Notes under the pieces: generated by a model
What the model saw: the letters and a program-made list of their open reading frames with translations, nothing else
The model's database searches: none
Told to the model about the DNA's origin: nothing
NCBI GenBank assembly: GCA_017470145.1
Contig: JAFUFB010000012.1
Location: 1 to 46,535, forward strand
From: Clostridia bacterium
GTDB taxonomy: Bacteria; Bacillota; Clostridia; Christensenellales; Aristaeellaceae
Length of the DNA stretch: 46,535 bases
Reading direction: 5' to 3'
Part shown: positions 2,607 through 40,299 of the stretch, one piece after another
How the letters are laid out: each line of letters starts with the position of its first letter
How positions within the stretch are numbered: position 1 is the first letter of the stretch
Translations under genes and position numbers: made by a program

Positions 2607-2646
2607 CCTAACAAGTCAGAGATTCGTTATGGCTGGAGTGAAAAGT

Positions 2647-2681
2647 TAACTTCCAGCGTCAGAAGAGGGAATTGGAAGTTA
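2647..2681. repeat. 9-bp inverted repeat in the divergent spacer
   Basis: TAACTTCCA (2647-2655) and TGGAAGTTA (2673-2681) form a perfect inverted repeat with a 17-bp centre. It lies about 40 bp behind the SDR promoter. It may be an operator or a chance repeat; no factor can be named. Confidence 0.45.
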
Positions 2682-2757
2682 GTCATACATCAAAATATAT
2701 TTAGCCTCTGATGGTAAGTAAATCAGGGTTGATCCAGTTTTGAGTTGAACTATATGA

Positions 2758-2838
2758 TTTTTTCTGTAGAAAAAAAGAAACATACATGATTTTATCTATA
2801 GTAAAAATAAATTCTTGTGGGTTTTTTCTATAGAAAAA
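2758..2838. promoter_or_regulatory. Three phased palindromes upstream of ATPase A
   Basis: Three copies of a palindrome with consensus TTTTCTATAGAAAA are centred on CTGTAG (2764-2769), CTATAG (2796-2801) and CTATAG (2828-2833). Centre-to-centre spacing is exactly 32 bp both times, close to three helical turns, so the sites face the same side of the DNA. The third copy ends one base before the -35 box of the ATPase gene. The pattern fits cooperative binding by a dimeric regulator, possibly the ATPase itself. Confidence 0.75.
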
Positions 2839-2839
2839 C

Positions 2840-2868
2840 TTGTATTATGAACTATTTTTGTATATACT
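2840..2868 (+). promoter_or_regulatory. Promoter of ATPase A
   Basis: TTGTAT (2840-2845), a 17-bp spacer and TATACT (2863-2868) form a sigma-A-type promoter. The predicted start, near 2875, leaves a very short leader before GGAGGTG (2877-2883) and the ATG at 2887. Confidence 0.75.
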
Positions 2869-2886
2869 TCTTTCATGGAGGTGTAC

Positions 2887-4218
2887 ATGATGTTGCGACG
2901 GAAAATGATGGCGGAATTGATCCGCTGGAGAGAATCAGGCCCGGAAAAGAAATGCCTCATGATTCGCGGCGCCAGACAGGTCGGGAAAACCTATTTGGTT
3001 CGGGAGTTTGGGAAAAGCTATACCAACTACATAGAGTTGAATTTTATTGAACATCCAGAATACAGCAATATTTTCAGCGGCAGCCTGGATGTGGACACGA
3101 TGCGGCTTAACATATCTGCACTTTTCCCTTCAGCAGTGTTTACTCCCGGAGAAACGCTTATTTTACTGGATGAAATACAGGAATCTCCGGAGGCTCTGAC
3201 GTCGCTGAAATTCTGGACGCTGGATCACCGTTATGATGTCATCGCTACAGGTTCAACACTGGGGATAGACTATAAGACATCCTTCTCTTTCCCCGTCGGG
3301 CATGTAAAGACGTTAGAGATGACATCCCTTGATTTTGAAGAATTTCTCTGGGCTAAAGGGATGAAAGAAGAAGTGATTGAGCAGGTTAGAACCTGCTTCC
3401 AGAATCGGGAAGCAGTTCCGTCCGTAATCCATGATCGGATGATGCAATTGATGAAGGAATACCTGATCACGGGTGGAATGCCAGAGGTTGTAAAGCATTT
3501 TCTGGCCAGCAACAATCTTGCCTCTATGGATGAAATTCAACGTCAGATATACGCTGATAACATAGACAATATCGCTCATTATGCGCCATCGCAGATCCGA
3601 ATGCGAACCCAGAAATGCTATCGGTCTATTCCGGCCCAGTTGTCCAAAGAGAATCACAAATTTCAGTATAAAATTGTAGAACAGGGGGGAACATCCACTC
3701 GTTTTGAGACCTGCTTGGATTGGTTGGAAAAAGCCTATTTGATTCTTCCTGTTCATCACGTATCTGCCATCGGGTTTCCGCTGGACAGTTTTCACGAGGA
3801 GGGTACGTTTCGAATCTATCCCACGGATATAGGCATGCTGATCGCCGCTTATCCATTTCTGGTCAAAGGCGCCCTCTGGGAAAACGAAAATCTAGAGGAT
3901 CAGCCAAGAAATCTCATCGTTGGCCAAGCTAAAGGAGGCATATACGAAGCGCTGGCTGCTGATATGCTATATAAACGAGGCTATCGAGACTTGTTTTATC
4001 TGAAGGATCAGAAATCAACCCGGGAAGTAGAATTCTTCATCACGAATCAAGATGGGATCATTCCGGTAGAAATTAAAGCTGGCCGAAATCGAGCCAACTC
4101 ATTGGGCCATCTGCTGGAAAATCCGATGATTCCGTATGGATATAAGCTATCTTCTCAAAATGTGGGGGTATCGGGCAAGCGGATTACGCTTCCCTTGTAT
4201 ATGCTGATGTTCCTATGA
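2887..4218 (+). CDS. ATPase A: AAA_14-type ATP-binding protein with DUF4143
   Basis: This protein of about 443 residues belongs to a widespread orphan family that pairs an N-terminal P-loop ATPase with a C-terminal DUF4143 domain. Walker A is GARQVGKT near residues 27-34, Walker B is LILLDEIQ near 90-97, and a sensor-like VIATGS follows. The C-terminal domain ends in a PD-(D/E)XK-like pattern, with REVEFF followed by PVEIKAG (ExK retained, the usual Asp replaced by Glu). GGAGGTG at 2877-2883 supports starting at 2887 or 2890. It is a monocistronic, AT-rich island gene behind three phased palindromes. Cellular function is unknown for the family; autoregulation is my inference from the operators. 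Confidence 0.85.
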   Translation: MMLRRKMMAELIRWRESGPEKKCLMIRGARQVGKTYLVREFGKSYTNYIELNFIEHPEYSNIFSGSLDVDTMRLNISALFPSAVFTPGETLILLDEIQESPEALTSLKFWTLDHRYDVIATGSTLGIDYKTSFSFPVGHVKTLEMTSLDFEEFLWAKGMKEEVIEQVRTCFQNREAVPSVIHDRMMQLMKEYLITGGMPEVVKHFLASNNLASMDEIQRQIYADNIDNIAHYAPSQIRMRTQKCYRSIPAQLSKENHKFQYKIVEQGGTSTRFETCLDWLEKAYLILPVHHVSAIGFPLDSFHEEGTFRIYPTDIGMLIAAYPFLVKGALWENENLEDQPRNLIVGQAKGGIYEALAADMLYKRGYRDLFYLKDQKSTREVEFFITNQDGIIPVEIKAGRNRANSLGHLLENPMIPYGYKLSSQNVGVSGKRITLPLYMLMFL

Positions 4219-4222
4219 ACCA

Positions 4223-4464
4223 TCAAGCGCTACATTCCAATCTAACGGAACGCTTACTTGCAGGAAGTGTATAACGAGCAAACAGGAAAATCTCTGAGTG
4301 ACAAACAGACATGCCATTCTTTTCAATCTTTGTCATGTTCATTTTGCGTCCTCCAAATCGATCCAATACCTCTGGAGAAAATATCCGTCCTCCTCGATCT
4401 CATTTTCCAATTTTCCCCCATTGTACCTGATAGCTTTTGCAGATGGCCTGTGAGACAAAAGCAT
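4223..4464 (-). other. Possible remnant: two overlapping small reading frames
   Basis: The spacer between ATPases A and B has no clear gene. On the minus strand, 4339-4464 would encode 41 residues with a protein-like acidic and aromatic stretch (GKLENEIEEDGYFLQRYW). Its stop overlaps, as ATGA, the start of a 39-residue frame at 4223-4342. Neither has a convincing ribosome-binding site and I recognise no family. They may be eroded gene pieces or chance frames. Confidence 0.25.
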
Positions 4465-4498
4465 TTTACCACTGATAACTACCTTGACAAGTTAGCGC

Positions 4499-4527
4499 TT
4501 GACAGGAAATATAATTCTGCATATTAT
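4499..4527 (+). promoter_or_regulatory. Promoter of ATPase B
   Basis: A perfect TTGACA (4499-4504), 17 bp and TATTAT (4522-4527). A second TTGACA at 4484-4489 with TATAAT at 4510-4515 is spaced 20 bp and is less likely to be used. The predicted start, near 4534, falls inside the first operator repeat. Confidence 0.82.
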
Positions 4528-4572
4528 GAACTCATAAGTTCAGAACTCGTAAGTTCAGAACTTATGAGTTCA
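4528..4572. promoter_or_regulatory. Triple 15-bp tandem palindrome over the start site of ATPase B
   Basis: Three head-to-tail 15-mers run without gaps: GAACTCATAAGTTCA (4528-4542), GAACTCGTAAGTTCA (4543-4557) and GAACTTATGAGTTCA (4558-4572). Each contains the palindromic half-sites GAACT and AGTTC, and the block as a whole is nearly palindromic. It begins directly after the -10 box and covers the predicted transcription start, the classic position for a repressor operator. Confidence 0.82.
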
Positions 4573-4605
4573 TTTTAGAAATAAAGTTCGAAGGGGGTAT
4601 GTTTG

Positions 4606-6021
4606 ATGTTCATCGGCCGCGAAGCAGAATTGCAGAAAATGAATCAAAGATATGAGCGGGATAGCCTTGAATTCATTGTGATTTACGGCCGTCGGAGAGT
4701 CGGGAAAACTGCGTTGATCAATGAGTTTGTGAAAGACAAACCCTGTATCTACTTCTCGGCGCTACGCGCTAACAGAAAAGAAAACCTGGAAGCTTTCTCA
4801 AAGTCGATATATCAGTTTGATCATCCAGATGTGCAGGAGGCTCCTGTTTTTTCCTCCTTTGATTCAGCTTTTTCCGAAATTACAAGGATGGTGGAGAAAA
4901 ATAGAATCGTCCTTGTTATCGATGAATTTCCCTATCTGGCTGAAGCTGACGAGTCAATTTCCTCTCGATTACAGCATCTTCTTGATCATGACTGGGGAAA
5001 AACAAAAATCTACTTGATTTTATGTGGTTCTTCCATGAGCTACATGGAGAAAGAAGTCCTCAGTGGGAAAAGCCCATTATTTGGCAGACGAACAGCTCAG
5101 CTTTATCTTCAGCCGATGGACTATTTGACGTCTGCTCGATTTCTTCCTGATGCATCACCGGAGGAAAAGGCTATTATTTACGGGATCACTGGTGGCATTC
5201 CGCATTATATTAACAAATTGGGTTTCGCAGGTTCCCTTCAAAATGCATTATTGGATAATCTGTTTGATTCGTCTGCATATCTATTCGAAGAGCCACAGAA
5301 TCTATTAAAACAGGAACTAAGAGAACCGGCACTTTATAATTCTATCATCTCTGTTATTGCCGCAGGAAACACAAAACTAAGCGATATTTCGACAAAATCC
5401 GGTATGGATCAGTCCGCGTGTCTGAAATATATTAAAGTGTTGATGGAATTAGCAATCATAAAAAAAGTAGAACCCGTTGTAGACCGATCTGCCAAAAAGA
5501 AGGAATACCGTGTTGCAGATCCCTTCTTCCGTTTTTGGTATCGCTTTGTGCCGCAAAACATGACTGCAATTACAACCGGTACGATGAGCCGAATTTACCA
5601 TGCTGCTGTAGAGAGCTATTTGTCAGGATATATGGGAGCGACTTTTGAGGATATCTGTCGGCAATATTTACTTTTACACATGGATCAACTGCCATTTCCT
5701 ATTCATGAGATTGGAGAATGGTGGGGGACTTTGCCAAAGGAAAAGAAAGAAGCGCAAATTGACATTGTAGCTACCTCTATTCGTGAAAATAATGTTCAAG
5801 ACGGAAGGCAATATCTGATTGGTTCATGTAAATATCTGAATGATCAGGTTGGTGTAGAGGAATTTGCGCTCATGAAGAATTATGCATCCGCCTTCACAAG
5901 TATTCAAGACGAGTGCTATTTCTATATCTTTTCCAAATCAGGTTTTACCCAGAAACTTCATGAATTGGAAAAAAATGGGGAAGTACATCTCATCTCGCTT
6001 TCAGATATATATCAGAATTAA
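4606..6021 (+). CDS. ATPase B: ATPase_2-type protein with DUF234
   Basis: This protein of about 471 residues begins with the hallmark FIGRE motif of the archaeal-ATPase (PF01637-like, STAND-class) family. Walker A is GRRRVGKT near 28-35 and Walker B is VLVIDEF near 105. A winged-helix-like segment sits in mid-protein, and the DUF234 signature VADPFFRFWYRF is near 306-317. The C-terminal nuclease-like core reads AQIDIV followed by GSCKY, so Glu of the usual ExK is replaced by Ser while Lys is kept. GGGGG before position 4597 supports the ATG at 4606; a TTG one codon upstream is possible. It is AT-rich, alone in its transcript, and has its own triple operator. Function is unknown. Confidence 0.85.
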   Translation: MFIGREAELQKMNQRYERDSLEFIVIYGRRRVGKTALINEFVKDKPCIYFSALRANRKENLEAFSKSIYQFDHPDVQEAPVFSSFDSAFSEITRMVEKNRIVLVIDEFPYLAEADESISSRLQHLLDHDWGKTKIYLILCGSSMSYMEKEVLSGKSPLFGRRTAQLYLQPMDYLTSARFLPDASPEEKAIIYGITGGIPHYINKLGFAGSLQNALLDNLFDSSAYLFEEPQNLLKQELREPALYNSIISVIAAGNTKLSDISTKSGMDQSACLKYIKVLMELAIIKKVEPVVDRSAKKKEYRVADPFFRFWYRFVPQNMTAITTGTMSRIYHAAVESYLSGYMGATFEDICRQYLLLHMDQLPFPIHEIGEWWGTLPKEKKEAQIDIVATSIRENNVQDGRQYLIGSCKYLNDQVGVEEFALMKNYASAFTSIQDECYFYIFSKSGFTQKLHELEKNGEVHLISLSDIYQN

Positions 6022-6084
6022 TGACTCCTAAACTTCAACACGCATCAAACAATAGACAAATCATCTTGGAGAGAACTTTTTCTA

Positions 6085-7449
6085 TCAAAAGCTGACTCCC
6101 TTTCGACGCAGATAGCAGGATCCGAAAAGGAAGAATAGCACCAAATTATGAGCGATCATGCAGCCCCAGGCGGAAATCAGCCCCAGATCCATCATCTGCG
6201 TGCATAGGAAGGTGCCCACGATTCGCACGCCCCACATGCAGGCCACGTTAAAGATCAGAGGCAGTCGGGTTTGTCCCATCCCCTGCATCATTCCCTCCAC
6301 TACGATGGGAATGCCGTAGAAGGGCTCGGACAGGGCCACCATCTTCAGCACTGTGGTTCCCAGAAGGACCACCTGCTCATCTCTGGCAAAGATGCGAACC
6401 AGCGGTTCTGCCATCACGAAAAGCAGTCCGCCGGAAAGGATCATCATCAGTACCTCCAGGATCACCATGGTCCTTCCGAGACGCTTGAATCCGGCAGAGT
6501 CCCCGGCGCCATAGGCATTTCCCGCCAGCGTCGCCGCGGCGGTTTGCATTCCCCAACCGGGGATATAGAAGGCGGATTCCACCGTGTTCGCGATGGTATG
6601 CGCGGCGGTAGACACATCCCCCAGGCTGTTGATCATCGCGGCGAAAACCACGTATCCCAGCGAGGTCATGAATCGCTGTACCAGGTTGGGGATCGCCACC
6701 TGAAAGCATCTTCGAGTCAGATCTGACGTTAGGCGGAAGGACTCTCCCCTGGGAGAGATGTTCTTTTGGCGAAAGAGCGCCACCGTGATGGCCACCCCGC
6801 CATAGGCAAAGGACAGGGCGGAAGCCAGCGCAGCCCCCTCCACGCCCCATCCACACCCCCAAAGGGTTATTTCTAAACCTGCCAGCCGGAGGGAGCGGCT
6901 GGGATAGATGAAAAGGAAATTCAGCGCCACATTGATCAGATTCACCAGGACGCCCACCTGCATGGGCGTCTTTGTGTCTCCCGCGCTGCGCAGGGCGGTA
7001 CCCAGAATCACGCTGGCCGTGCGGAACAGCATGGAGGAATACAAGATCAGGAAATATCGGGAACTGATCGCCTGAATAGACGGGTCCACCTGCATCCAGA
7101 TGGGAATCATGCCGCTGAGCAAAGTAGTCACCATGGTCATCGCCACGCCGGTGATCAGCGTCATGGTCACGGCCTGGGCGCTGGCCCTGCGGGCAGTTCT
7201 TTGATCCCCCGCCCCCAGGGACTGACTGATGATCGCCAGAAAGCCAACGCCTATGGCAGAGATCGTGCTGCCAATCAGCCAACTGACCGTACTGGTGGAT
7301 CCCACCGCCGCGGTCGCCTGGGTCCCCAGACTACCCACCATCGCGGTATCGATGTACTGGACCGCCGTTTGCATCAGCTGCTCCAGCATGGTAGGCCAGG
7401 CCAGGGACAGAATGACAGACAGCATGGAAAGGTCAAAATACTGTATCAA
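6085..7449 (-). CDS. MATE family multidrug efflux transporter
   Basis: This 454-residue polytopic membrane protein has the length, twelve hydrophobic segments and two-fold repeat of MATE exporters, which extrude drugs or metabolites in exchange for Na+ or H+. Typical segments are WPTMLEQLMQTAVQYIDTAMVG at the N-terminus, cut here to its key words WPTMLEQ and DTAMVG, and WGMQTAAATLAGNAYGAG in the second half. The start is TTG at 7449 because AAGGAG lies five nucleotides upstream. GC content is like the core genome, unlike the ATPases on both sides. It is convergent with ATPase B. The substrate cannot be told. Confidence 0.92.
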   Translation of the reverse strand: MIQYFDLSMLSVILSLAWPTMLEQLMQTAVQYIDTAMVGSLGTQATAAVGSTSTVSWLIGSTISAIGVGFLAIISQSLGAGDQRTARRASAQAVTMTLITGVAMTMVTTLLSGMIPIWMQVDPSIQAISSRYFLILYSSMLFRTASVILGTALRSAGDTKTPMQVGVLVNLINVALNFLFIYPSRSLRLAGLEITLWGCGWGVEGAALASALSFAYGGVAITVALFRQKNISPRGESFRLTSDLTRRCFQVAIPNLVQRFMTSLGYVVFAAMINSLGDVSTAAHTIANTVESAFYIPGWGMQTAAATLAGNAYGAGDSAGFKRLGRTMVILEVLMMILSGGLLFVMAEPLVRIFARDEQVVLLGTTVLKMVALSEPFYGIPIVVEGMMQGMGQTRLPLIFNVACMWGVRIVGTFLCTQMMDLGLISAWGCMIAHNLVLFFLFGSCYLRRKGVSF

Positions 7450-7633
7450 AGCTTCTCCTTCCCCTCATGAGGCAAACTGGTTATGCCGCGTCATTTGGCC
7501 GCGGCCCACAGGATTTATCCGATTTCAAAGAAGAAAGAGCCGCTCCACAGAACAGCTCTGTCAACCACCTGATTCCAGGTACATTCTATGGAAACTGATA
7601 AATAAGCCAGAACTAGCCATTCTCAGAGGTCGA

Positions 7634-9082
7634 TTACCTTTCTTTTTCAAACAAATCGTCCAGCACAACCTGCCCCTGAATTTGGTTGCTGTACTTGTTC
7701 TGTTTCACCCCATAGGTTGTGATCACAACCAGCTGAAGGGATTTTGTCGTCCCTGTAGCTTTTCTGAAGGCTTCCACCTTGTTTCGAAGAACTAAATCGT
7801 AAGCCTTGTCAATTTCATATACGTTCTGAGAATATTTTGCCTCGCAAAGAGAGATCACATGATCTCTGCGGTCCAGAACCATATCAATCTGTGCGCCAGT
7901 CTCCTCTTCCCTATCCTCCTCCGCTTTGATGCGCCATGTGGAGGCCTCCGTAAGAACGCCTGAGATTCCGAGGCGTTGCTTGATTTGCGGTAGATGATCC
8001 CGGCATAGCTGTTCAAATATGAGTCCTGCCCATGCTACTCTCGAAGGATTATCATAGGTATGCGTCCAATATGATTCATCCACGCCATAATGGTCTTTTG
8101 CGAAGCGAAAATAAAACATCGTGAAATAATCACTCAGTTGATATCTTGTCTCTTTTTTCTTCTGACGATAATAGGAGATCGCATGAATGAAGCCTGCGTC
8201 TGTCATTCTCTTCAGCCTTTGGGAGAATTCCCCGTTATAGGACATCCCAGCCTGCTGGGCCAGCTCCTTCTTCGTCATGCCGTATCGCTTTTGGCTCAGA
8301 ATCTCCGCAATCTTTATGTACTGTTCGCTATGCTTGAACAGCGTTCTGAAAAGATTGTCAAATTCATCCCCCAGTTCAGCCCCTTTGCTGAAGAACAACC
8401 TGTCAATATTGGCGCTCAGTGACAGCTCTTCATCCAGAAAGCCTAAATAGTATGGAATCCCGCCCATGATCATATAACACTGAGCGATATCATATCTGGA
8501 CCAGTCTATTCCTAAAGATCGAAGGAAAACCTCTGTTTCCCCAAGAGTGAACGGTTCAAGATGCAAACTACAGGTTTTCCTGCTGAACAATCCGCCCTTG
8601 TTGCGGTCGATATTCTCAACCATCCAGGATGTCGCTGATCCACAGACGATAAACACCAGATGATCACAGGAATTGCCAAAGGAATTCCAAAAGTATTCAA
8701 AGGATGGAAGAAAATCAGATCCATTTGTATCCATCCATGGCATTTCATCAAAGAAAACCACATGCTTTTCATCTGCGGGAAGGCCAGAGAGGTAGGTTTG
8801 CAGGTGTTCAAAAGCTTCCTTCCAGTTTCTGGGAACTGAAGTGGCCACTTTGGAGCGGCGGTTCAGCTCCAAAGTAAAATTCTCTAACTGGCTTTCTTTT
8901 GTCGCGTTGTATGATCCAGTTAATTTGAAGTCAAAACGCTTTTCAAAAAATTCGTTAATCAGAAAGGTTTTGCCAACTCTGCGTCTGCCGTACACAACAA
9001 CCAGCTGGGCCTCCGTCTTTCGGAGACAGCGCCTCAGCTTTCTGCACTCCTCTTCTCTGCCGAAAAGCTTCGTTTCTTTCAT
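7634..9082 (-). CDS. ATPase C: ATPase_2-type protein with DUF234
   Basis: This 482-residue paralog opens with LFGREEE. Walker A is GRRRVGKT near residues 32-39 and the Walker B region is VVFFDEMPWMDT near 108-119. A winged-helix region (MTKKELAQQAGMSYNG) and the DUF234 segment YQLSDYFTMFYFRF follow. The C-terminal nuclease-like core looks intact, with AQIDMVLDRRDHVISL followed by CEAKY (Asp...ExK). AAGGAGG precedes the ATG. It resembles ATPase D (38640-40076) most closely; both have a PWMDT/SWMDT box after Walker B. It is AT-rich and monocistronic. The promoter lies inside a 15-bp inverted repeat. Function is unknown. Confidence 0.86.
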   Translation of the reverse strand: MKETKLFGREEECRKLRRCLRKTEAQLVVVYGRRRVGKTFLINEFFEKRFDFKLTGSYNATKESQLENFTLELNRRSKVATSVPRNWKEAFEHLQTYLSGLPADEKHVVFFDEMPWMDTNGSDFLPSFEYFWNSFGNSCDHLVFIVCGSATSWMVENIDRNKGGLFSRKTCSLHLEPFTLGETEVFLRSLGIDWSRYDIAQCYMIMGGIPYYLGFLDEELSLSANIDRLFFSKGAELGDEFDNLFRTLFKHSEQYIKIAEILSQKRYGMTKKELAQQAGMSYNGEFSQRLKRMTDAGFIHAISYYRQKKKETRYQLSDYFTMFYFRFAKDHYGVDESYWTHTYDNPSRVAWAGLIFEQLCRDHLPQIKQRLGISGVLTEASTWRIKAEEDREEETGAQIDMVLDRRDHVISLCEAKYSQNVYEIDKAYDLVLRNKVEAFRKATGTTKSLQLVVITTYGVKQNKYSNQIQGQVVLDDLFEKER

Positions 9083-9107
9083 CTAAGCAGCCCCTCCTTA
9101 TACGGAG

Positions 9108-9136
9108 ATATTAACATAGATAATGACGATTTTCAA
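9108..9136 (-). promoter_or_regulatory. Promoter of ATPase C
   Basis: On the minus strand TTGAAA (9131-9136), 17 bp and TAATAT (9108-9113). One operator arm (9115-9129) fills the spacer and the other (9144-9158) lies just upstream of the -35 box. Confidence 0.8.
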
Positions 9137-9204
9137 GAGATTTTCGTCATTATCTATGGTTTTTCATAATAAAATGACGAAAATGAGAACATTTCCGTCA
9201 TTTT
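9115..9204. promoter_or_regulatory. Two inverted repeats with a TGACGA core around the ATPase C promoter
   Basis: The first inverted repeat has perfect 15-bp arms, CATAGATAATGACGA (9115-9129) and its complement (9144-9158). The second has arms 9171-9185 and 9190-9204 with one mismatch and the core AAAATGACG. All four arms share ATGACG. One repeat embraces the -35 box and the other lies just behind it, so bound protein would block the promoter. Confidence 0.8.
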
Positions 9205-9272
9205 GTCTATTGTGTGCTGATTTTCTTTTATGTCACTACGGACAGCTGTTTGCCGTGGATGCGTTTCCTTGC

Positions 9273-11072: not shown

Positions 11073-11073
11073 G

Positions 11074-31232: not shown

Positions 31233-31261
31233 ATGATAACACAAATCGGTAATAAATGCAA
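31233..31261 (-). promoter_or_regulatory. Promoter of the small hypothetical gene
   Basis: On the minus strand TTGCAT (31256-31261), 17 bp and TATCAT (31233-31238). Confidence 0.75.
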
Positions 31262-31295
31262 CACTTCCCGCATGGAATAATACTGCCCAGATTGG

Positions 31296-31469
31296 ACAAG
31301 AAAGCCGCTCTTTTCGCTGCTTTTCGCCCTGCGAAGGGATGTTTCAATCCGGGGCCCTTGGAAGACGTCGGCACTTAGCGGGTGGCGAAGGCAGCCGCTT
31401 TGTGCCGCTACGTCTGGAACGGAGCGAGAGCGTGCCCCGGAGGGGAACTCCCGCGCGCAAGGGCGCTGC
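31296..31469 (-). ncRNA. Structured RNA candidate, 6S RNA-like
   Basis: This stretch of about 174 bases folds into one long rod. The closing stem is 31326-31333 with 31456-31464, followed by a large asymmetric bubble and a 7-bp stem CCGGGGC (31349-31355) with 31434-31440. A second bubble leads to a terminal arm starting GACGT (31364-31368) with 31410-31414 and continuing GGCAC/GTGCC and AGCGG/CCGCT. Length and rod-with-bubble shape match 6S RNA, the RNA polymerase regulator. On the minus strand a TAGAAT box (31476-31481) lies just before it and a hairpin plus T-rich tract (31296-31322) ends it. The -35 box is weak and I could not confirm a 6S consensus. Confidence 0.5.
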
Positions 31470-31478
31470 ATGCTCATT

Positions 31479-34205: not shown

Positions 34206-34236
34206 CTTTTCTTCCTCCTTTTTTGCTCCCGCGCGC

Positions 34237-34719
34237 TTAAACCCCTGTAGAGCCCATTCCACCCTTTCGCTCCTTGAAATCTTCCTCTTCCTCCGCCAAC
34301 CCATAGGGCAGCAAAATCCCCTGGCAGAATCGGTCTCCCCGGGCGATCATCAAATCATGATCCAAGGGATTCCGCAGGGATACCATAATATGCCCCTCGT
34401 TGTCCGCGAAGGCATAATCGCTGTCGATAATTCCCACCGTGTTGCTCAACCGCGTCTGGTGCTTGAATCCCAACCCGCTGCGAGGGAAGATCATCAGCAC
34501 CCATCCCTCCTGCATTTCGCATCGAATCCCCGTGGGGATCACAGCCTTCCCCCCTGCGGGAATCACCGCGTCCATGGGGGACACGAAGTCATATCCCGCG
34601 CTTCCCCGGGTGGACCGCTTCGGCAAGGGAATCTCCTCCCGGGGCAGCACATCCCCCTTCCCCGCCATGGCCAGGCGATACTGCTCCTCCGATACATGGG
34701 TAAACTTCGCAATGCTCAT
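34237..34719 (-). CDS. dut: dUTP diphosphatase (dUTPase)
   Basis: This 160-residue trimeric-type dUTPase hydrolyses dUTP to dUMP and keeps uracil out of DNA. The conserved motifs appear in order: TRGSAGYDF near 37-45, PRSGLGFKH near 80-88, NTVGIIDSDY near 93-102, the GDRFCQGIL region, and the C-terminal GGMGSTGV that closes the active site. The second part of motif 3 carries Asp at the catalytic position. The N-terminal 25 residues are a short extension. It lies 33 bp after rsmA in the same operon. Confidence 0.94.
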   Translation of the reverse strand: MSIAKFTHVSEEQYRLAMAGKGDVLPREEIPLPKRSTRGSAGYDFVSPMDAVIPAGGKAVIPTGIRCEMQEGWVLMIFPRSGLGFKHQTRLSNTVGIIDSDYAFADNEGHIMVSLRNPLDHDLMIARGDRFCQGILLPYGLAEEEEDFKERKGGMGSTGV

Positions 34720-34752
34720 TTTGATTCACTCGCTTCCTTCTGTCAAGTTCGG

Positions 34753-35607
34753 TTAATTCTCTTGTTTCTCTTCTTGAACCTCCGCCCAGACGTCCGCCAG
34801 AGCCGCCAGCTGTTCCAGATTTAGCTTTTCTCCCCGGATCTTTTCGTCCAGCCCGGCCCGGCGCATAAGCTCCAGGGCTTCCTCCCGGCTCAGATGCAGG
34901 GAGGCGCTCAGGCCATTGGTCATAGTTTTCCGCCGTAGGGCGAAGGCCGCTGTGACGATCTGGAAAAAGGCCTTTTCGTCCTTCACCCGGACCGCCGGCT
35001 CCTGCCTCCTGGGCAACACGATGAAGGCACTGTCCACCTTCGGTACAGGGGTAAAACAGCTGGCCGGCACGATCTGGGCCAGATAGGGCTCGCACAGGTA
35101 TTGGCACCGTACCGCCAGGGGGCCCCATCCCTCCTCCCCCGGGGAGGAAAGGATTTTCTCCGCCACTTCCTTCTGCACCATCAGCGCCATTCTGGAAATG
35201 GGCAGCCCGGAGGTCAGTAGCCGGGTAATCAGCGGGGTCGTAATATAGTAAGGGATATTGGCCACCACCGCGAAGGGCTTCCGCAGCTCCCCTGTAATCT
35301 CCTCCAAATCCACCGCCATCACATCCCCCTGCACCAGGGAGAAATTGTCCTGTCCTGCCATGAAGGCGTTCAGCAGCGGAATCAGCCGCTCATCCAGCTC
35401 CAGGCTCAGCACATGATGAGCCGCCCCGCACAGGTGCTTCGTCAGGCTCCCCGCCCCGGGGCCGATCTCCAGCACATCGTCTTCCCTGCTGATTCCTGCG
35501 TCCGCCACCAGGGAAGCCAGCAGATCCTCATCATAGATAAAATTCTGCCCCAGGCTCTGCTTGTATCGCAGGTTGCTCTCCCGAATCCGATCCTTCGTCT
35601 TGCTCAA
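34753..35607 (-). CDS. rsmA: 16S rRNA dimethyladenosine transferase (KsgA)
   Basis: This 284-residue methyltransferase dimethylates two adjacent adenines near the 3' end of 16S rRNA during late 30S assembly. The N-terminal KQSLGQNFIYD, the SAM loop LEIGPGAGSLT (about 47-57) and the catalytic NIPYYITTP (about 118-126) are diagnostic. Translation appears to start at TTG (35607) with GAGG six bases upstream. It is the first gene of the rsmA-dut-manA-hflX operon with a clear promoter at 35649-35677. Confidence 0.96.
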   Translation of the reverse strand: MSKTKDRIRESNLRYKQSLGQNFIYDEDLLASLVADAGISREDDVLEIGPGAGSLTKHLCGAAHHVLSLELDERLIPLLNAFMAGQDNFSLVQGDVMAVDLEEITGELRKPFAVVANIPYYITTPLITRLLTSGLPISRMALMVQKEVAEKILSSPGEEGWGPLAVRCQYLCEPYLAQIVPASCFTPVPKVDSAFIVLPRRQEPAVRVKDEKAFFQIVTAAFALRRKTMTNGLSASLHLSREEALELMRRAGLDEKIRGEKLNLEQLAALADVWAEVQEEKQEN

Positions 35608-35648
35608 TCTATCCTCACACTTCTTCCATAAAAGCGGTTTTTTAGGGA

Positions 35649-35677
35649 ATTATACCACTCAGATCTTCTTTCCGCAA
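35649..35677 (-). promoter_or_regulatory. Promoter of the rsmA operon
   Basis: On the minus strand TTGCGG (35672-35677), 17 bp and TATAAT (35649-35654). The surrounding 34 bp are nearly repeated at 43550-43583 ahead of the GH88/105 gene. Confidence 0.75.
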
Positions 35678-35771
35678 ACGCCAGGGAAAAGGAAAGGATC
35701 AACGATCATTATATAAACAGGTGTTTTCGTCGTGAACATCCGGAACGTATTTCGCGAAAAAGACTGACGAC

Positions 35772-35820
35772 CTTGCAACATTTTAGAATCATTTCTAAAG
35801 TTTGCAAGTTATCTTGCAAG
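35772..35820. promoter_or_regulatory. Nested TTGCAA palindrome array upstream of ATPase E
   Basis: Three copies of CTTGCAAG-type palindrome lie at 35772-35778, 35802-35808 and 35813-35820. The first two enclose an inner inverted repeat, TTTAGAA with TTCTAAA, so the block forms a nested palindrome. The third copy contains the -35 hexamer of the ATPase promoter, so a bound protein would block polymerase. Confidence 0.75.
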
Positions 35821-35842
35821 AAATAGAAAAATGTGATATTCT
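35814..35842 (+). promoter_or_regulatory. Promoter of ATPase E
   Basis: TTGCAA (35814-35819), 17 bp and TATTCT (35837-35842). The predicted start, near 35849, leaves a leader of about 67 nt. Confidence 0.75.
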
Positions 35843-35915
35843 TTGCATCGTGACGTACATGCTATGCACTGTTGGCGTGTCCGAAATACCAGTAACTGCA
35901 CTTGAGGTGATATTT

Positions 35916-37136
35916 ATGAAACTAATCCGCGAGAACTACCTAAAGATGATTCGTCCATACTATGAAGCTGACTTAATCAAAGTGATTACCGGGGTTCGTC
36001 GTGCCGGCAAATCCGTTATTCTGGAAAGCATTCGAGATGAGCTGCACCAATCTCACATCCCAAGTGATCATATTATTTATCTCAATTTGGAAGACCTCGA
36101 TTTTGAGTGGATTCAAACCGCCCAAGAACTGAATACGCAGATCAAAGAACGTATTCTCGACGAAAAAAGATATTATATTTTTATCGATGAAATTCAGCAT
36201 GTCGAGGCATTTGAAAAAGCCCTCGCTTCCTTTCGTGCAACTCTGAATGCCTCTATTTTTGTAACAGGCAGTAATTCACAGCTTTTATCGGGGGAACTTG
36301 CTACCTTGCTAACTGGAAGAACAGTTGAATTTGAAATTCTCCCCTTTTCATTCAGTGAAATGAAGGAATATCTCCTTCTGAATCAAATGAATTACAGTGA
36401 TGAAATGATCTATGATTACATCAAATGGGGTGGATTCCCGCTGCGTTTTGACTTCCATGAGGATGCTTCCATTCAGCGGTATCTTTCAAATCTCTATACG
36501 GGCATTATCAACAGGGATATTATTTCCAGACAGAGCCGCTTAGATCGCAGGGTATTTATGGATATCGCGATGTACGTCCTTGCCAACGCCGGGAAGGAGT
36601 TTTCCGCGGAAAATATCATCTCATACTACGAAAAGAAAAATAGTCGCGTCATCAGTCAAAGATCCGTATACAATTATATTGAGAAAATGCAAAAGGCATT
36701 TCTGATTCATTCTGTTCCGAAGTATGATATCTCCGGAAAAAAAGTTCTCCAAGCAAAACAAAAGTATTATGCGATCGATACCGGTCTCCAGGCAATACAT
36801 ACAAATACCATCAACTTTGAGGATACTTTTTTCCTTGAAAATATTATCTATAACGAACTTCTATTTCAAGGCTTTACCGTTTTCACAGGAAAGACATACA
36901 AGGGTGAAGTTGATTTCGTAGCGATAAAGGATGGTAGAAAATGCTTTATTCAGGTTTCTTATCTGATGACTTCACAAAGCACAATTGAAAGAGAGTTTGG
37001 AGCGTTTCGCCCCATTACAGATGCATCGCCTAAATACGTACTGTCCCTGGACAAGATCGATATGAGCAGAGATGGAATTGCGCACATCAATATCGTTGAC
37101 TTCCTGTTGCATAATAGATCGCTTGCTCTCACCTAA
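35916..37136 (+). CDS. ATPase E: AAA_14-type ATP-binding protein with DUF4143
   Basis: This 406-residue orphan ATPase has Walker A GVRRAGKS near 22-29, Walker B YIFIDEIQH near 84-92, and the sensor segment FVTGSNSQLLSGE near 111-123 followed by LTGRT. The C-terminal DUF4143 region holds YNELLFQGF and GEVDFVA, then FIQVSYL, where the usual ExK pair of the nuclease-like core has become QxS. Any cleavage activity is therefore doubtful. GAGGTGATATTT before the ATG at 35916 fixes the start; an upstream in-frame ATG lies inside the operator. It is AT-rich against GC-rich neighbours. Its function is unknown. Confidence 0.86.
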   Translation: MKLIRENYLKMIRPYYEADLIKVITGVRRAGKSVILESIRDELHQSHIPSDHIIYLNLEDLDFEWIQTAQELNTQIKERILDEKRYYIFIDEIQHVEAFEKALASFRATLNASIFVTGSNSQLLSGELATLLTGRTVEFEILPFSFSEMKEYLLLNQMNYSDEMIYDYIKWGGFPLRFDFHEDASIQRYLSNLYTGIINRDIISRQSRLDRRVFMDIAMYVLANAGKEFSAENIISYYEKKNSRVISQRSVYNYIEKMQKAFLIHSVPKYDISGKKVLQAKQKYYAIDTGLQAIHTNTINFEDTFFLENIIYNELLFQGFTVFTGKTYKGEVDFVAIKDGRKCFIQVSYLMTSQSTIEREFGAFRPITDASPKYVLSLDKIDMSRDGIAHINIVDFLLHNRSLALT

Positions 37137-37247
37137 GATAAAGCTCAGAAAATTCTCTACCAACGTTTCGTATTTCTGTCTGTGACTCCTGCCACATTTC
37201 ATCAGCTGTCACTGCAAATAATTCTTCCAATAATTCCGTTTTATCGC

Positions 37248-37397
37248 TCACTCCAGCGGAATAATCCTCCAGTATCCTTCTTTCCGTCCTCCGCTGCGTT
37301 CGATGAATCCCTTCTCTCTCAGCGTCCGTAAATAGGTCTCTGCGCTTCTGATGGAAACAGCATCGGAACCATCCAGCTTCACAATCCTGCAATACAT
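37248..37397 (-). pseudogene. Winged-helix C-terminal remnant
   Basis: A 49-codon frame reads ETYLRTLREKGFIERSGGRK and then GYWRII, which resembles the C-terminal winged helix of AlbA_2-domain ATP-binding or RecG-related proteins. The rest of such a gene is absent, so this is probably the tail of a deleted gene. The flanking 37137-37247 has no convincing gene. Confidence 0.5.
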
Positions 37398-37417
37398 AAT
37401 TCAGATCATAGATACAT

Positions 37418-37954
37418 TTAACTTCTATGCAGCCATTTCAGCTTGGGCTGAATGCGGTTTGCATACAGAGGAATCAATACTTCCAACAGCTTGTCATATA
37501 CCAGCATACTGATGATCGTGACAGCGCCAAACCCTATCGTCAGCCACATTCCCATCTCCTTAAATTCTTCCATGGCTGCAGTTATAGGGAAGAACAGTCT
37601 TAACAAAAGATACATCAGCACCAGCGAGACGGCAAAAACGCCTATCTTCATAAGCAGTTTCCCTCTCACCCGGTCAATCCGCCACTTGATGATCGGATAG
37701 TAGCCAAAGAAGATATAGAAAAATGCCGCTTCTTTATCGAAATCGATCAGCAGAGAAAGGATCGCCACGGCAGCATATGTTGTCCATGCGGGTTTCCTCC
37801 CAAACTCCACCGCCACCCACAGGTTAATTAACCCGCAAAGCAAGGGTACGGCATAGGTAGCCGCGGGAATAATGCCGCCAATGAGCATGATCACAAGCGA
37901 CAGCGCGGCCGCCATGCCGCAAAAGGCAATCATCGATGCCTGATTTCTTCTCAA
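37418..37954 (-). CDS. Integral membrane protein, unknown function
   Basis: This 178-residue protein has five to six hydrophobic segments (about 8-26, 32-52, 58-72, 76-90, 98-122 and 133-155) and a short basic C-terminus. The N-terminal half, with MIAFCGMAAALSLVIMLIGG (quoted as AFCGMAAALS), recalls small ECF-type S components, but I cannot assign a ligand. Translation appears to start at TTG (37954) after GGAGGATAGA, the same arrangement as rsmA. It is probably a single-gene unit. Confidence 0.78.
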   Translation of the reverse strand: MRRNQASMIAFCGMAAALSLVIMLIGGIIPAATYAVPLLCGLINLWVAVEFGRKPAWTTYAAVAILSLLIDFDKEAAFFYIFFGYYPIIKWRIDRVRGKLLMKIGVFAVSLVLMYLLLRLFFPITAAMEEFKEMGMWLTIGFGAVTIISMLVYDKLLEVLIPLYANRIQPKLKWLHRS

Positions 37955-38053
37955 TCTATCCTCCCGCTTTCTCCCGACAATGTTTTCTCATTTCAAACAC
38001 AAAGCTGATCACTTGTCGATTGGTGCAACTTTTCCCTGAATACCCTTCTTCTC

Positions 38054-38326
38054 TTATTCATCAATCAGCACAACATTCACATAGCTTGTTAAGTAGGTTT
38101 TGCCATCGATCTTCACCTGGATCACATCCGAATCATCGAAATCCAGCCAGGAATTGAGCTTACCATCAATCACTTCCCCATTCGGCAGCTTCACGATCGC
38201 GCGCTTAAAACTATACTTCATATCGAAAAGCTGACGATTTCCCACATGCGTCTGCCAGTAGATGACGCTTCCTCCAATCACGATGACCAATACTACCGCA
38301 ATGATCGCTACTACCTTTTTGTTCAT
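38054..38326 (-). CDS. Small membrane-anchored protein, unknown function
   Basis: This 90-residue protein has one N-terminal membrane helix (residues 4-24, VVAIIAVVLVIVIGGSVIYW) and a small extracytoplasmic beta-rich part. That part contains AIVKLPNGEVIDGKLNSWLDF, quoted as VKLPNGEVIDG, and DVIQVKIDGKTYLTSYVNVVLI, quoted as VIQVKIDG. The pattern is like small clostridial proteins of unknown role. The ATG overlaps as ATGA the stop of the decayed epimerase gene upstream, so it was probably translationally coupled to it. Confidence 0.68.
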   Translation of the reverse strand: MNKKVVAIIAVVLVIVIGGSVIYWQTHVGNRQLFDMKYSFKRAIVKLPNGEVIDGKLNSWLDFDDSDVIQVKIDGKTYLTSYVNVVLIDE

Positions 38327-38561
38327 TGTTCTTTACCCATCCTTTCCTTCACCCATTTTATTGATTCCACAGCATCCTGCAACACATACCTCGGATCACA
38401 GGAATAGAGTTCAATTACAACATTACCTTTGTAATCTTGCGCCTTCAATTTCTTGATGATCGCATTCCTTCATCACGAAGGCGTTTTAACGCATCATGGA
38501 CAGTAACCCCCGCGGCGACCGCACCGTCATGAATATTCTCGTAGAATACTGCTGTTTTCAC
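38323..38561 (-). pseudogene. Decayed sugar phosphate isomerase/epimerase
   Basis: A GTG start with GGAGGG upstream begins KTAVFYENIHDGAVAAGVTV, a typical N-terminus of xylose-isomerase-like TIM-barrel epimerases. After about 33 codons the frame is lost. The C-terminal end LKAQDYKGNVVIELYS followed by VKERMGKEQ appears in another frame. The intact gene would be about 270 codons, so more than 180 codons of the middle are deleted. Confidence 0.72.
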
Positions 38562-38639
38562 CCTTCTTCCCTCCTGAATTTACTGAAGCCCTCATCGTGT
38601 GTCCGGCGCCAATGAATGATCACTCTGTCCTCTTAACCT

Positions 38640-40076
38640 TCAAATCTCCCGCATCAAGTCTTCCGCCGTTATCTGGAATTGAATCTCCCCAGCATATTCA
38701 TTCCAGCTTAATCCATAGGGTGTCACCATTGTCTGATGTATCGCATCTCGGGTTTTTGTGACCCGCACAAAGTCTTCTGCCTTTTTCCGGAGTTCTTCAT
38801 TGATTGACCGAGAAATCAGGTAAGGCCCTCTGGCATATTTCATTTCCAGAAGATTTATCGTGCGATCCGCGCGCCAAATCACCAGATCGATCTGTGAACC
38901 GTTGATCCCATTTTCCGGATGTTTTCCGCACACAAAGGACGAAACATCGGTTAGAATACCGGATATGCCAAGCTTCGTCTTGATCTGGTCAATGTGCAGC
39001 AGACACAGTTGTTCGAAAGCTAATCCTGCCCAAGTGTTCACCATGGGCGTATTGATTTGATGGGACCAGTAATTCGGATCTCCTGGTTTTTTCCGGAGAA
39101 AATGATGATAAAACAAAATAAAGGGATCCATCAATTGGTATAAACTATCCTTGCTCTTTTTTCCAAACGCATGGTATTCCCGTATGAAGCCACAGCTTTC
39201 CAGCTCGTTTAATTTTTCTGAAAAAATACCAGAACCCGTTAGCCCTGTTGCTGCAATGATTTCATTACGTGTTAACCCCTTCTTTTTCCCAGCCAACGCG
39301 CGAACAATTTTCAGATAGTCACCCGGTTTTCTAAAGATGGCAGCAAACAAATAATCATATTCCTCTTTCATTGGCGCATCCTCCGCAAAGAAAAGCGCAT
39401 CCATATTCTGAGAAACGGATAACCCTTTCTGCATCAAGCCCCAATAAAACGGAATTCCGCCCACGGCCATATACAATTCCATGATTTGTGTATCTGAAAA
39501 AGCAAGATTCTGTTGTTCAACATATCTTTTACATTGGGCCAACGTAAAGGGCTTTAATCTAATCTGACCAGTCAGACGATTATATAAGCCCCCTTTGTTA
39601 TGGATTACCTTCTTGAGAATCCAGGAGGTTGCGGAGCTGCAAACAATCATCACAAGATCATGTTGCGCAGAGGCCCATGAATTCCAGAAATGCTCTAGAG
39701 CTTTCATCATGTCAGTCCTGGATGTATCCATCCAGGAAAGTTCATCCAGAAAAATGATTTTTTTGCGTTGGGTGCTTTGCAATACAAGCTGTTTGAGCTG
39801 TTGAAAAGCCTCAAACCAGCTCGTCAGAGCAGGGCGATTCTCCGGCAAGCCAGCATCCGTTAACGCGTTAGAGAAGGCCTGCAGCTGTTCCTTTCTTGTT
39901 CCCTGATATACGCCTGCATGCTGAAAAGTAAATCGGCCCTTGAACGATTCCCGAATTAGATATGTTTTCCCAACTCTGCGCCTGCCATATACTGCGATTA
40001 GTTGGGCTTCCTCGCGATCTGCAGCCGCCTCCAGGAATGCCATTTCCCGCTCTCGTCCGATCAGCAACGCTTTCAT
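38640..40076 (-). CDS. ATPase D: ATPase_2-type protein with DUF234
   Basis: This 478-residue paralog of ATPase C begins LLIGRERE. Walker A is GRRRVGKT near 31-38 and the Walker B region is IIFLDELSWMDT near 107-118. A winged-helix segment (LTRNEIIAATGLTGSGIFS) and the DUF234 signature YQLMDPFILFYHHF follow. The C-terminal nuclease-like core looks intact: SQIDLVIWRADRTINLL and then EMKYA (Asp...ExK). GGGAG lies unusually close to the ATG. It is AT-rich and monocistronic, with two long inverted repeats upstream. The function is unknown. Confidence 0.86.
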   Translation of the reverse strand: MKALLIGREREMAFLEAAADREEAQLIAVYGRRRVGKTYLIRESFKGRFTFQHAGVYQGTRKEQLQAFSNALTDAGLPENRPALTSWFEAFQQLKQLVLQSTQRKKIIFLDELSWMDTSRTDMMKALEHFWNSWASAQHDLVMIVCSSATSWILKKVIHNKGGLYNRLTGQIRLKPFTLAQCKRYVEQQNLAFSDTQIMELYMAVGGIPFYWGLMQKGLSVSQNMDALFFAEDAPMKEEYDYLFAAIFRKPGDYLKIVRALAGKKKGLTRNEIIAATGLTGSGIFSEKLNELESCGFIREYHAFGKKSKDSLYQLMDPFILFYHHFLRKKPGDPNYWSHQINTPMVNTWAGLAFEQLCLLHIDQIKTKLGISGILTDVSSFVCGKHPENGINGSQIDLVIWRADRTINLLEMKYARGPYLISRSINEELRKKAEDFVRVTKTRDAIHQTMVTPYGLSWNEYAGEIQFQITAEDLMREI

Positions 40077-40084
40077 CTCCCGCT

Positions 40085-40258
40085 TTATAATTTACCAAAT
40101 CGATAAAAATCTAATCGATTTGGTAAATTATAATGAAAACAAATCAATTTTGCAAGACCTTTTCTGATTTACAATATCAATATTTTGAGAACCATCCAAA
40201 ACATTTACTATGAATATTTTAAATTACCAAATCTCTAAAAAAAAGTGAGATTTGGTAA
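40085..40258. promoter_or_regulatory. Two distant inverted repeats with a TTACCAAATC core upstream of ATPase D
   Basis: The proximal repeat has perfect 20-bp arms (40085-40104 and 40114-40133, core TTTACCAAATCGAT) and overlaps the -10 box and start site. The distal repeat has perfect 12-bp arms, TTACCAAATCTC (40224-40235) with 40247-40258. Both share TTACCAAATC. Their distance, about 130 bp, would suit DNA looping between two operators. Confidence 0.82.
40127..40155 (-). promoter_or_regulatory. Promoter of ATPase D
   Basis: On the minus strand TTGCAA (40150-40155), 17 bp and a perfect TATAAT (40127-40132). The -10 is inside one arm of the proximal operator. Confidence 0.82.
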
Positions 40259-40299
40259 GAATAAAAAGGATTGAATTGTACTTCTCTCGTCCAGCGGAT

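Follow-up and report, generated by a model that had tools for sequence, protein, structure and literature searches.

Private repeat arrays at the promoters of STAND-type ATPase-nuclease genes of the PDC-S01 and PDC-S27 families

Introduction

Why should related ATPase genes of a single bacterial genome each carry a different set of repeats at their promoters, and what might read them? The question is raised by a 46,535-nucleotide stretch of a Clostridia bacterium genome (the window), in which the first-pass annotation had pointed to five dispersed, AT-rich ATPase genes of the AAA_14/DUF4143 or ATPase_2/DUF234 type standing alone amid GC-rich genes, each with elaborate palindromes of its own at a near-consensus promoter, and had proposed that each protein recognizes these through its winged helix or its nuclease-like C-terminal domain.

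Results

Five ATPase-nuclease genes in one window

The genes, designated W1 to W5, and the island that holds two of them are as follows:

2887–4218, plus strand (open reading frame opens at 2875): W1, AAA_14/DUF4143, PDC-S01; STAND-type ATPase with winged helix and PD-(D/E)XK domain
4603–6021, plus strand: W2, ATPase_2/DUF234, PDC-S27
7634–9082, minus strand: W3, ATPase_2, PDC-S27
35916–37136, plus strand (likely start 35916; open reading frame opens at 35802): W4, AAA_14/DUF4143, PDC-S01
38640–40076, minus strand: W5, ATPase_2, PDC-S27; winged helix at residues 251–315, conserved E355, D397, E411 and K413
35609–43778 (8.2 kb), no strand assigned: accessory island with W4, W5, a gene for an M56 (BlaR1-type) peptidase and a GH88 gene

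The likely start of W1 is 2887 or 2890, downstream of GGAGGTG. The DNA in which the five genes lie has ~38–48% GC as against mostly 50–68% for the genes around it, which bears out their description as AT-rich ATPase genes amid GC-rich ones; their isolation was overstated, since W4 and W5 share the island and W1 and W2 are neighbors. The family assignments held for W1, W2 and W4, whereas the ATPase_2 proteins W3 and W5 gave no DUF234 match, although in the predicted model of W5 the C-terminal part is PD-(D/E)XK-like. PADLOC profiles covered most of each protein: PDC-S01 for W1 (E-value 2.6 × 10–135) and W4 (1.4 × 10–133), and PDC-S27 for W3 (2.1 × 10–189), W5 (4.8 × 10–187) and, more weakly, W2 (7 × 10–60). 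In all, this genome has 17 distinct paralogues of the PDC-S01/S27 type.

The PDC-S01 and PDC-S27 proteins are, on the predicted models and fold matches, minimal STAND ATPases fused to a PD-(D/E)XK nuclease: nucleotide-binding, helical and winged-helix domains follow one another in the STAND order, Walker A and B are present, the fold matches agree, and G31, R33, G36, K37, D111 and E112 (W5 numbering) are invariant. Among the nuclease residues of the ATPase_2 type, D397 is invariant and E355, E411 and K413 occur in at least 90% of 39 sequences; for the DUF4143 type, E353 is invariant and E379 and D381 occur in at least 90% of 35 sequences. Missing fold matches to the nuclease carry no weight, because the VIA-align lists of such matches cover mainly residues 1–345.

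Promoter arrays at the five genes

At the five promoters we located the following elements:

2759–2841, plus strand: W1 array, three CTRTAG palindromes centered at ~2766.5, 2798.5 and 2830.5 (32-bp period)
4499–4527, plus strand: W2 promoter-like site, TTGACA-17-TATTAT, with the –10 TATTAT at 4522–4527
4528–4571, plus strand: W2 array, GAACTNNTNAGTTC as three 14-bp palindromes repeating every 15 bp, immediately downstream of the –10
9119–9202, minus strand: W3 array, a set of two TGACG inverted pairs, of which the proximal one overlaps the called –35
35772–35821, plus strand: W4 array, three CTTGCAA sites, giving four matches because one of them is self-complementary; the weakest of the five
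40092–40126, minus strand: W5 array, proximal inverted pair TTACCAAATCGAT...ATCGATTTGGTAA
40224–40258, minus strand: W5 array, distal inverted pair TTACCAAATCTC...GAGATTTGGTAA

Both inverted pairs of the W5 array have the form TTACCAAATC...GATTTGGTAA. When tested blind against dinucleotide-shuffled sequence, the arrays of W2 (p=0.003), W5 (p=0.003), W3 (p=0.01) and W1 (combined p=0.013; direct repeats alone p=0.003) were significant, and that of W4 was not (p=0.13); the count of CTTGCAA at W4 has p=0.006 with the 7-mer word length chosen post hoc. Hence, the claim of an elaborate array at every gene stands for four of the five, with W4 weak. The five core sequences differ from one another, as had been stated. 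Within 369 kb of this genome (overlaps included), the W2 core is found at its own gene only, the W1 and W5 cores have one further site each, the long W3 core has none and its shorter form two; the 7-base W4 core is too short for such a uniqueness test.

Arrays are enriched upstream of both families

To homologues of both families we applied the same kind of analysis. The 184 profile hits comprised 156 distinct proteins, after setting aside 7 without a Walker motif or start as well as identical copies and proteins of <300 residues; 150 bp of upstream DNA were available for 153 of them and 160 bp for 152. Significant direct or inverted promoter repeats (p≤0.01) were recovered for 65 of 152, which thus show, with the exceptions given below, a trait of autoregulated repressor-operator pairs, namely repeated sites particular to the gene at its promoter; a later homologue set yielded 18 of 41. 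The controls were far lower, with 14 of 215 control genes, 2 of 40 AT-rich controls and 3 of 26 genes of the orphan ATPase-nuclease family PF09820 (1 of 26 in a separate inverted-repeat test; 4 of the 30 PF09820 loci contained no gene that could be used). The AT-rich and PF09820 counts rule out arrays being a general trait of AT-rich or orphan genes.

Palindromes had been predicted upstream of many such ATPases. The enrichment agrees with this, but the DUF4143 arrays are more often direct (31/73) than inverted (19/73) repeats, and about half of the homologues lack a detectable array (87/152 at p≤0.01; 65/152 at p≤0.05). In this genome, the paralogues L002, L004 (W4), L006, L012, L015 and L016 miss p≤0.02. 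A homologue from another genome, 96% identical to W1, has neither upstream homology to it nor an array, its contig starting 139 bp before the match.

Arrays change together with the protein they precede

Among ATPase_2 pairs that are 60–90% identical, the motif was common to 30 of 71 directed pairs, as against 2 for neighboring DNA; below 60% identity this fell to 8 of 685, as against 6. In this first comparison, pairs below 50% identity were represented by 700 drawn at random, with a control segment drawn for part of the pairs. An enlarged set gave sharing in 20 of 181 undirected pairs at 50–60% identity. We also scanned 84,980 species genomes in reverse, from motif to gene. The motif of the L006 clade occurred at 11 sites, and at all 11 the gene that follows immediately encodes such an ATPase. 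Two looser motifs were at an ATPase in 7 of 16 sites (motif 2; 6 of 16 by narrow profiles, L360 being added by broader ones) and 5 of 8 (motif 3, by both). Of the nine remaining sites of motif 2, six seem to belong to a different dispersed repeat of a single genus, and the other three have the 38-bp form but no ATPase within 1.5 kb on each side. Sharing of the palindromes with unrelated genes, which would speak against the original proposal, does occur to a degree, at a few sites away from ATPases; for the most part the arrays are gene-specific. As a side observation, the L006 array misses p≤0.02 in its own promoter, yet it was the L006 motif that proved conserved when genomes were scanned in reverse.

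Mimicry of the arrays by phages was considered and rejected, as exact matches to the W5, W3, W2 and L006-clade motifs in viral_contigs numbered 2, 6, 0 and 0; with narrow seed profiles, an ATPase was found in none of the 8 viral stretches with an exact W5 or W3 motif, these counts being for exact matches to the four motifs only.

Taken together, the arrays are gene-specific and family-specific and co-vary with the protein; they are largely private to each gene, with orphan arrays and one array-less copy as exceptions.

Which part of the protein tracks the motif

When motif sharing was compared with individual alignment columns, 58, 382 and 63 led the list, and three columns of the recognition helix, which spans residues 282–294 in W5, were among the top 7. 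By domain, the partial correlation was 0.32 for the NTPase and 0.29 for the winged helix, and by 21-residue window r was 0.39 for residues 46–66, 0.33 for 376–396 in the nuclease domain and at most 0.29 for the winged helix, all these pairs being phylogenetically non-independent. The proposal of the winged helix as reader thus gains from the recognition-helix columns, but the NTPase and residues 376–396 associate as much or more. For the nuclease-like C-terminal domain the proposal found no such backing: as a whole it shows no association, its identity being 0.59 in motif-sharing and 0.58 in non-sharing pairs, which leaves it unsupported as sole reader. We favor the winged helix as the putative DNA reader.

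Proposed self-regulation and competing explanations

On the sequence evidence, each protein probably reads its own array, regulates itself and is insulated from its paralogues. The encoded protein would be the most likely reader, its winged-helix recognition helix binding the half-sites. Since the arrays precede, overlap or closely follow the promoter, it would regulate, and most likely repress, its own transcription; 27 arrays were upstream of the –35, 46 overlapped the promoter and 19 followed the –10 in 92 genes, the promoters being the calls of a simple consensus caller with a score of at least 9 for every gene listed. Paralogues within one cell, 17 in this case, would keep distinct sites and so avoid silencing or triggering one another, as phage immunity repressors do. 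If the STAND switch responds to a trigger, DNA binding and nuclease activity may then shift jointly.

It is very unlikely that the arrays instead form hairpins in RNA or cruciforms in DNA, with symmetry alone mattering and the sequences drifting. Inverted repeats are indeed common, the 19 arrays that follow a heuristically called –10 would therefore be transcribed, and drift too would make near relatives alike and distant ones unlike; but the other positions lie upstream of the called –35 or overlap the promoter, direct repeats prevail in the DUF4143 arrays, and in an 11-sequence clade the half-sites are fixed in sequence (partly owing to the search pattern) while the stem interior pairs no better than shuffles. 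Rfam at gathering scores matches only two tRNAs in the window. Equally doubtful are ends of single-gene mobile elements, be they terminal inverted repeats or insertion targets, for which one might cite the patchy distribution (homologues at E≤10–9 in 20 of 45 genus genomes for ATPase_2 and 32 of 45 for DUF4143, a tally that may be low as the family search did not pick up W1), homologues on phage and plasmid records, the orphan arrays, the array-less gene copy and the empty sites of the island. At the island position, where 8 relatives have the two flanks within a single locus, six contain only 84–151 bp and the other two ~1.7 and 2.9 kb of different DNA; what these sites reveal, however, is a multi-gene island rather than a one-gene insertion, and no clean empty site for the W1–W3 region was found among the relatives compared. 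The same motif at both ends, as in transposon terminal inverted repeats, is not seen, the array motif recurring ≤200 bp downstream in just 5 of 92 genes.

Orc1/Cdc6 initiators, with their origin recognition boxes, and iteron Rep proteins likewise place an ATPase and winged helix on repeated sites beside their own gene, and their paralogues have private sites each. An initiator-like binder of this kind, with the array as an origin or maintenance site and autoregulation secondary, would accord with the resemblance of the fold to that of origin-bound Orc1/Cdc6 and with the iteron-like direct repeats of the DUF4143 class, such as the W1 sites 32 bp apart; we regard it as most improbable given the nuclease domain with conserved catalytic residues, the many unlinked copies in one chromosome and the lack of a replication family match in all four other island reading frames tested. 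A separate regulator for each array is hardly more attractive. Trans-acting control is usual for many orphan genes, the M56/BlaR1-type gene adjoins W5, and some plasmid homologues have HTH or LuxR-type genes nearby; but paralogues in the same genome have different arrays, which vary along with the protein encoded downstream, and therefore each array would need its own linked regulator. Finally, it is conceivable, if unlikely, that the STAND protein is held autoinhibited on its own promoter DNA, the loss or unmasking of which during phage takeover would activate the nuclease and derepress the gene; if so, every paralogue would stand guard independently over a DNA address of its own, and the array would be more than an operator. 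Self-regulation through a private array remains our preferred reading; array binding, repression and coupling to the STAND switch would be its parts, and a defensive or selfish role its possible setting.

Discussion

In NLR-type STAND proteins the winged-helix domain is part of the switch and does not read DNA. Compared with the archaeal STAND-type ATPases 2qen (PAB2304) and 2fna (SSO1545) and with the STAND/NLR proteins CED-4, RPP1, NRC4 and Avs5, the proteins here differ in their C-terminal PD-(D/E)XK part, which lies outside most of the matched ranges, and in a DNA array that tracks recognition-helix residues. Phage immunity repressors bind inverted repeats at their own promoter and are insulated between paralogues. 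The AbiE antitoxin is likewise autoregulated through inverted repeats at its promoter, according to the available part of PMC7319586; unlike in either, the putative reader and the effector nuclease would here be one polypeptide. The mycobacterial IniR, as far as the accessible text of PMC5760070 goes, is similar in acting at a promoter and in being a STAND-type ATPase whose NTPase domain resembles that of SSO1545, but its predicted DNA reading falls to a separate C-terminal LuxR-like domain, its target is the neighboring iniBAC operon, and no nuclease domain, present in the ATPases here, is described in that text.

PDC-S01 and PDC-S27 are PADLOC single-gene phage defense candidates, in which an ATPase is fused to PD-(D/E)XK as in the window proteins; by the sections of PMC12988326 available, PDC-S01 is the fourth most common defense system across prokaryotes, occurrences reach tens of thousands for S01 and thousands for S27, and most such candidates still await validation. 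Their phage-defense role is that of a candidate, labeled by PADLOC and published surveys. The PADLOC models include neither a promoter array nor its co-variation with the protein, and the terms "palindrom" and "inverted repeat" are absent from the main text of PMC12988326. Among the matches listed from the open-access PMC literature, in the parts available, we found no description of the private promoter-array rule.

A DNA address that co-evolves with the gene, as in many members of these families, offers a handle on what the PDC-S01/S27 proteins bind: the rule predicts for each protein both the DNA reader, the winged-helix recognition helix, and its exact target sites. The arrays and proteins would also offer an evolved set of orthogonal repressor-operator pairs, and coupling of a STAND immune switch to DNA binding becomes testable through the private arrays. 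In two families that are very common and uncharacterized, a private array that is often present and changes together with its protein suggests that each protein controls itself via its own address.

Repertoire and predicted architecture of the ATPases

The window corresponds to contig C29 of a 2.45-Mb draft genome and codes for five ATPases (W1–W5), which the first-pass annotation had placed in the AAA_14/DUF4143 or ATPase_2/DUF234 families; these assignments stand, except that W3 and W5 lack a DUF234 match. PADLOC labels W1 and W4 as PDC-S01, and W2, W3 and W5 as PDC-S27. By our count, the genome codes for 17 distinct members of these families: 12 ATPase_2 proteins (those above the cut-off, after merging two pairs of identical copies from contigs C2 and C9) and 5 DUF4143 proteins (including W1, which is absent from the family search listing). 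The two identical pairs of ATPase regions indicate that C2 and C9 are redundant or duplicated in the draft assembly. The predicted structures are confident (pLDDT 95.1 for W5 and 91.1 for W1) and display a P-loop ATPase, a helical domain, a winged helix, and a C-terminal portion in which the residues conserved in PD-(D/E)XK nucleases are present. Among solved structures, the archaeal STAND-type ATPases 2qen and 2fna come closest, followed by CED-4, plant NLRs, and Orc1/Cdc6.

Winged helix in the W5 model (residues)
251–262, helix
270–277, helix
282–294, helix
298–301, strand
312–315, strand

Repeat arrays at the promoters of both families

In a first set of 156 distinct ATPases, drawn from all loci collected up to that stage, we scored the best inverted repeat between –150 and +20 against 300 dinucleotide-shuffled versions of that region. 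It was significant (p≤0.01) for 69 of 153 ATPases (ATPase_2, 45/79; DUF4143, 24/74) against 22 of 215 other genes of the same genome, where many matches resemble GC-rich terminators. With direct or inverted repeats allowed between –160 and +15, 65 of 152 ATPases (ATPase_2, 33/79; DUF4143, 32/73) reached p≤0.01 and 87 reached p≤0.05, compared with 14/215 control genes and 2/40 AT-rich controls. Significant repeats thus lie upstream of many homologs but not of all; inverted repeats occur in both classes, and direct repeats are the commoner form in DUF4143 (31/73 versus 19/73).

Since the first set contains orthologs and is hence not independent, a second set matters: 41 genes collected later with arrays disregarded, comprising plasmid and phage homologs and a phylum-wide survey. 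Here, 18/41 were significant in the direct-or-inverted test and 13/41 in the inverted-repeat test (p≤0.01), the latter including plasmid genes of Mesorhizobium, Acinetobacter towneri, and Vibrio coralliilyticus. Among three genes from haloarchaea, the one of Halomarina had an inverted repeat at p≤0.01 (p=0.04 and 0.47 for the others); those of the Phocaeicola, Bacteroides, Ruminococcus, and Wolbachia phage genes in this set did not reach that level. The arrays at ATPase promoters exceed chance expectation. The A. towneri and V. coralliilyticus plasmid genes (L288, L289), from two gammaproteobacterial orders, code for DUF4143 ATPases and both have ATGCGCATAAAAA-type repeats upstream. In Wolbachia phage WO (MN180249.1; L279:2932–4395), a PDC-S27-like homolog annotated as 'archaeal ATPase, fused to C-terminal DUF234 domain' lies directly 3′ of phage head genes; its promoter has no significant inverted repeat (p=0.33).

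For comparison, we used PF09820/PDDEXK_9, a family of orphan, patchily distributed ATPase-nucleases from the same genus, in which the first test gave a significant inverted repeat for 1/26 genes and the second a repeat of either kind for 3/26. The arrays are specific to the DUF4143 and ATPase_2 ATPases. One PF09820 gene (L319) is preceded by a perfect 31-bp inverted repeat of TGGGAC-type units, unlike other PF09820 promoters.

Privacy of the cores and co-variation with the protein

The claim that each gene has its own core sequence largely holds. In 369 kb of the source genome, with overlapping loci counted in, the cores of W2 and six other ATPase genes (L018, L009, L008, L001, L003, and L013) occurred at their own gene only. 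W1 and W5 had one extra site each, L012 and a shorter form of the W3 core two each, and the short W4 and L006 cores were widespread. The L017 palindrome recurs at L234:2288–2320 (contig C11, about 120,288), ~150 bp upstream of another ATPase gene, of the AAA-ATPase_like/PDDEXK_9 type and convergent with the L017 ATPase; this copy is possibly a shared operator or a relic.

Co-variation of array and protein is borne out. Searching the arm of one gene in its partner's promoter on both strands, we found that ATPase_2 arms recurred in 10/11 directed pairs with protein identity of ≥90%, 30/71 at 60–90%, and 8/685 below 60%; a non-repeat segment taken from these promoters did so in 4, 2, and 6 pairs, respectively. 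DUF4143 arms were shared in 16/34 pairs at ≥70% identity (non-repeat segment, 4) and 2/296 below. Thus, motif sharing outlives that of flanking sequence and wanes with protein divergence. The drop is gentler in an enlarged ATPase_2 set of undirected pairs, as 20/181 still share at 50–60% identity (33/73 at 60–88%).

As to which part of the protein tracks the array, we compared 167 phylogenetically overlapping ATPase_2 pairs of 55–85% identity, 38 of them with a common motif. Identity in sharing versus non-sharing pairs was 0.73 versus 0.53 for the recognition region (266–296; partial r 0.30), 0.72 versus 0.63 for the NTPase (0.32), and 0.59 versus 0.58 for the nuclease (–0.18). Columns 284, 283, and 288, where the recognition helix begins, rank among the seven most associated of up to 478 (3/7 in 282–288, hypergeometric p=7e-5, the range having been picked with the model in hand), and the top 40 include 10 from the winged helix (5.4 expected), 13 from the NTPase (18), and 9 from the nuclease (11.5). 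The proposed link to the winged helix is thereby supported at these columns, but the strongest 21-residue windows (46–66 and 376–396) both lie outside it. Accordingly qualified, the co-variation supports the winged helix as putative reader of the array, favoring rather than proving it.

Motif searches, nature of the site, and mobility

A pattern from one ATPase_2 clade (that of L006), gave 11 matches across 84,980 species genomes, a collection that may omit the window's own and near records. The matches come mostly from assemblies titled as ruminant-gut Clostridia, and all 11 immediately precede an ATPase_2 gene (ten assigned by profile; the eleventh, L258, recognized by eye as an apparently decayed copy). 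Searches of 308 genomes of the family with two further patterns were less clean. Of the 16 sites of TTCGGCAAAA...TTTTGCCGAA, 7 accompany DUF4143 ATPases, 6 fall in an apparent dispersed repeat of one genus, and 3 are orphan. GGCGCTAAC...GTTAGCGCC, with a gap of exactly 15 bp in 7/8 sites, had 5 at ATPase_2 genes (4 genomes) and 3 elsewhere, one being a small array with no such gene in the flanking DNA examined. Confinement of the palindromes to these ATPases holds for the L006-clade pattern but not for 9/16 and 3/8 sites of the other patterns. These ATPase-less sites make arrays and genes separable, and the converse case is a copy of the W1 reading frame with 96% identity (L120:140–1484; G072, contig C26), homologous from the ribosome site to a few bases past the stop codon between unrelated flanks, with no array in the 139 bp of upstream DNA covered. 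The dispersed repeat (L355–L359, L364; several genomes of one related genus), mostly with TCATCCGTC before and TCCACCTTCCCC after, looks like a small interspersed element. ATPase-type arrays or palindromes at L367:1501–1600, L361:1501, L354:1501, and L363:1501 have no ATPase gene within about 1.5 kb on each side, and may be relics or operators of other genes.

An array could be read as a DNA site or as a hairpin. Across the 11 L006-clade sequences, 20/33 columns are invariant, many of them fixed by the search pattern, and the four stem-pairing positions left free are paired in 22/44 cells against 45% in shuffles; this sequence pattern disfavors the hairpin and points to a DNA site. Relative to heuristically called promoters, arrays lie upstream of –35 in 27/92 genes, overlap the promoter in 46, and follow –10 in 19; for 5/92, the motif reappears in the 200 bp downstream.

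At E≤1e-9, DUF4143 ATPases occur in 32/45 and ATPase_2 in 20/45 genomes of the genus, and one of the sister genomes, G026, has neither. W4 and W5 share one island. Among 8 relatives for which a single locus includes both of its flanks, 6 have 84–151 bp at this site, and the remaining 2 carry other DNA of about 1.7 and 2.9 kb. Near both island ends lies a ~35-bp direct repeat, 86% identical (window:35646–35679 and 43549–43582), which may represent a target duplication or a piece of a promoter.

A predicted self-regulatory role

Surveys list both families as abundant defense candidates combining ATPase and PD-(D/E)XK domains, with validation pending for most (PMC12988326, PMC13356809). The AAA_14/DUF4143 gene TT_P0211 of Thermus thermophilus is reported as up 6.6-fold in a strain with both a plasmid and Argonaute (PMC4406477); an expression change has therefore been seen for a family member. 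The open-access literature searched held no account of the arrays. Their best explanation, which we regard as reasonably probable, is that the encoded protein is the predicted reader of its own array. Action of each ATPase on its own promoter array would be the simplest account because the protein travels with the array, the recognition residues of its winged helix track it, and the paralogs of one cell need insulation. Binding of the array by the encoded protein would probably repress its gene, and the STAND switch may be coupled to that binding.
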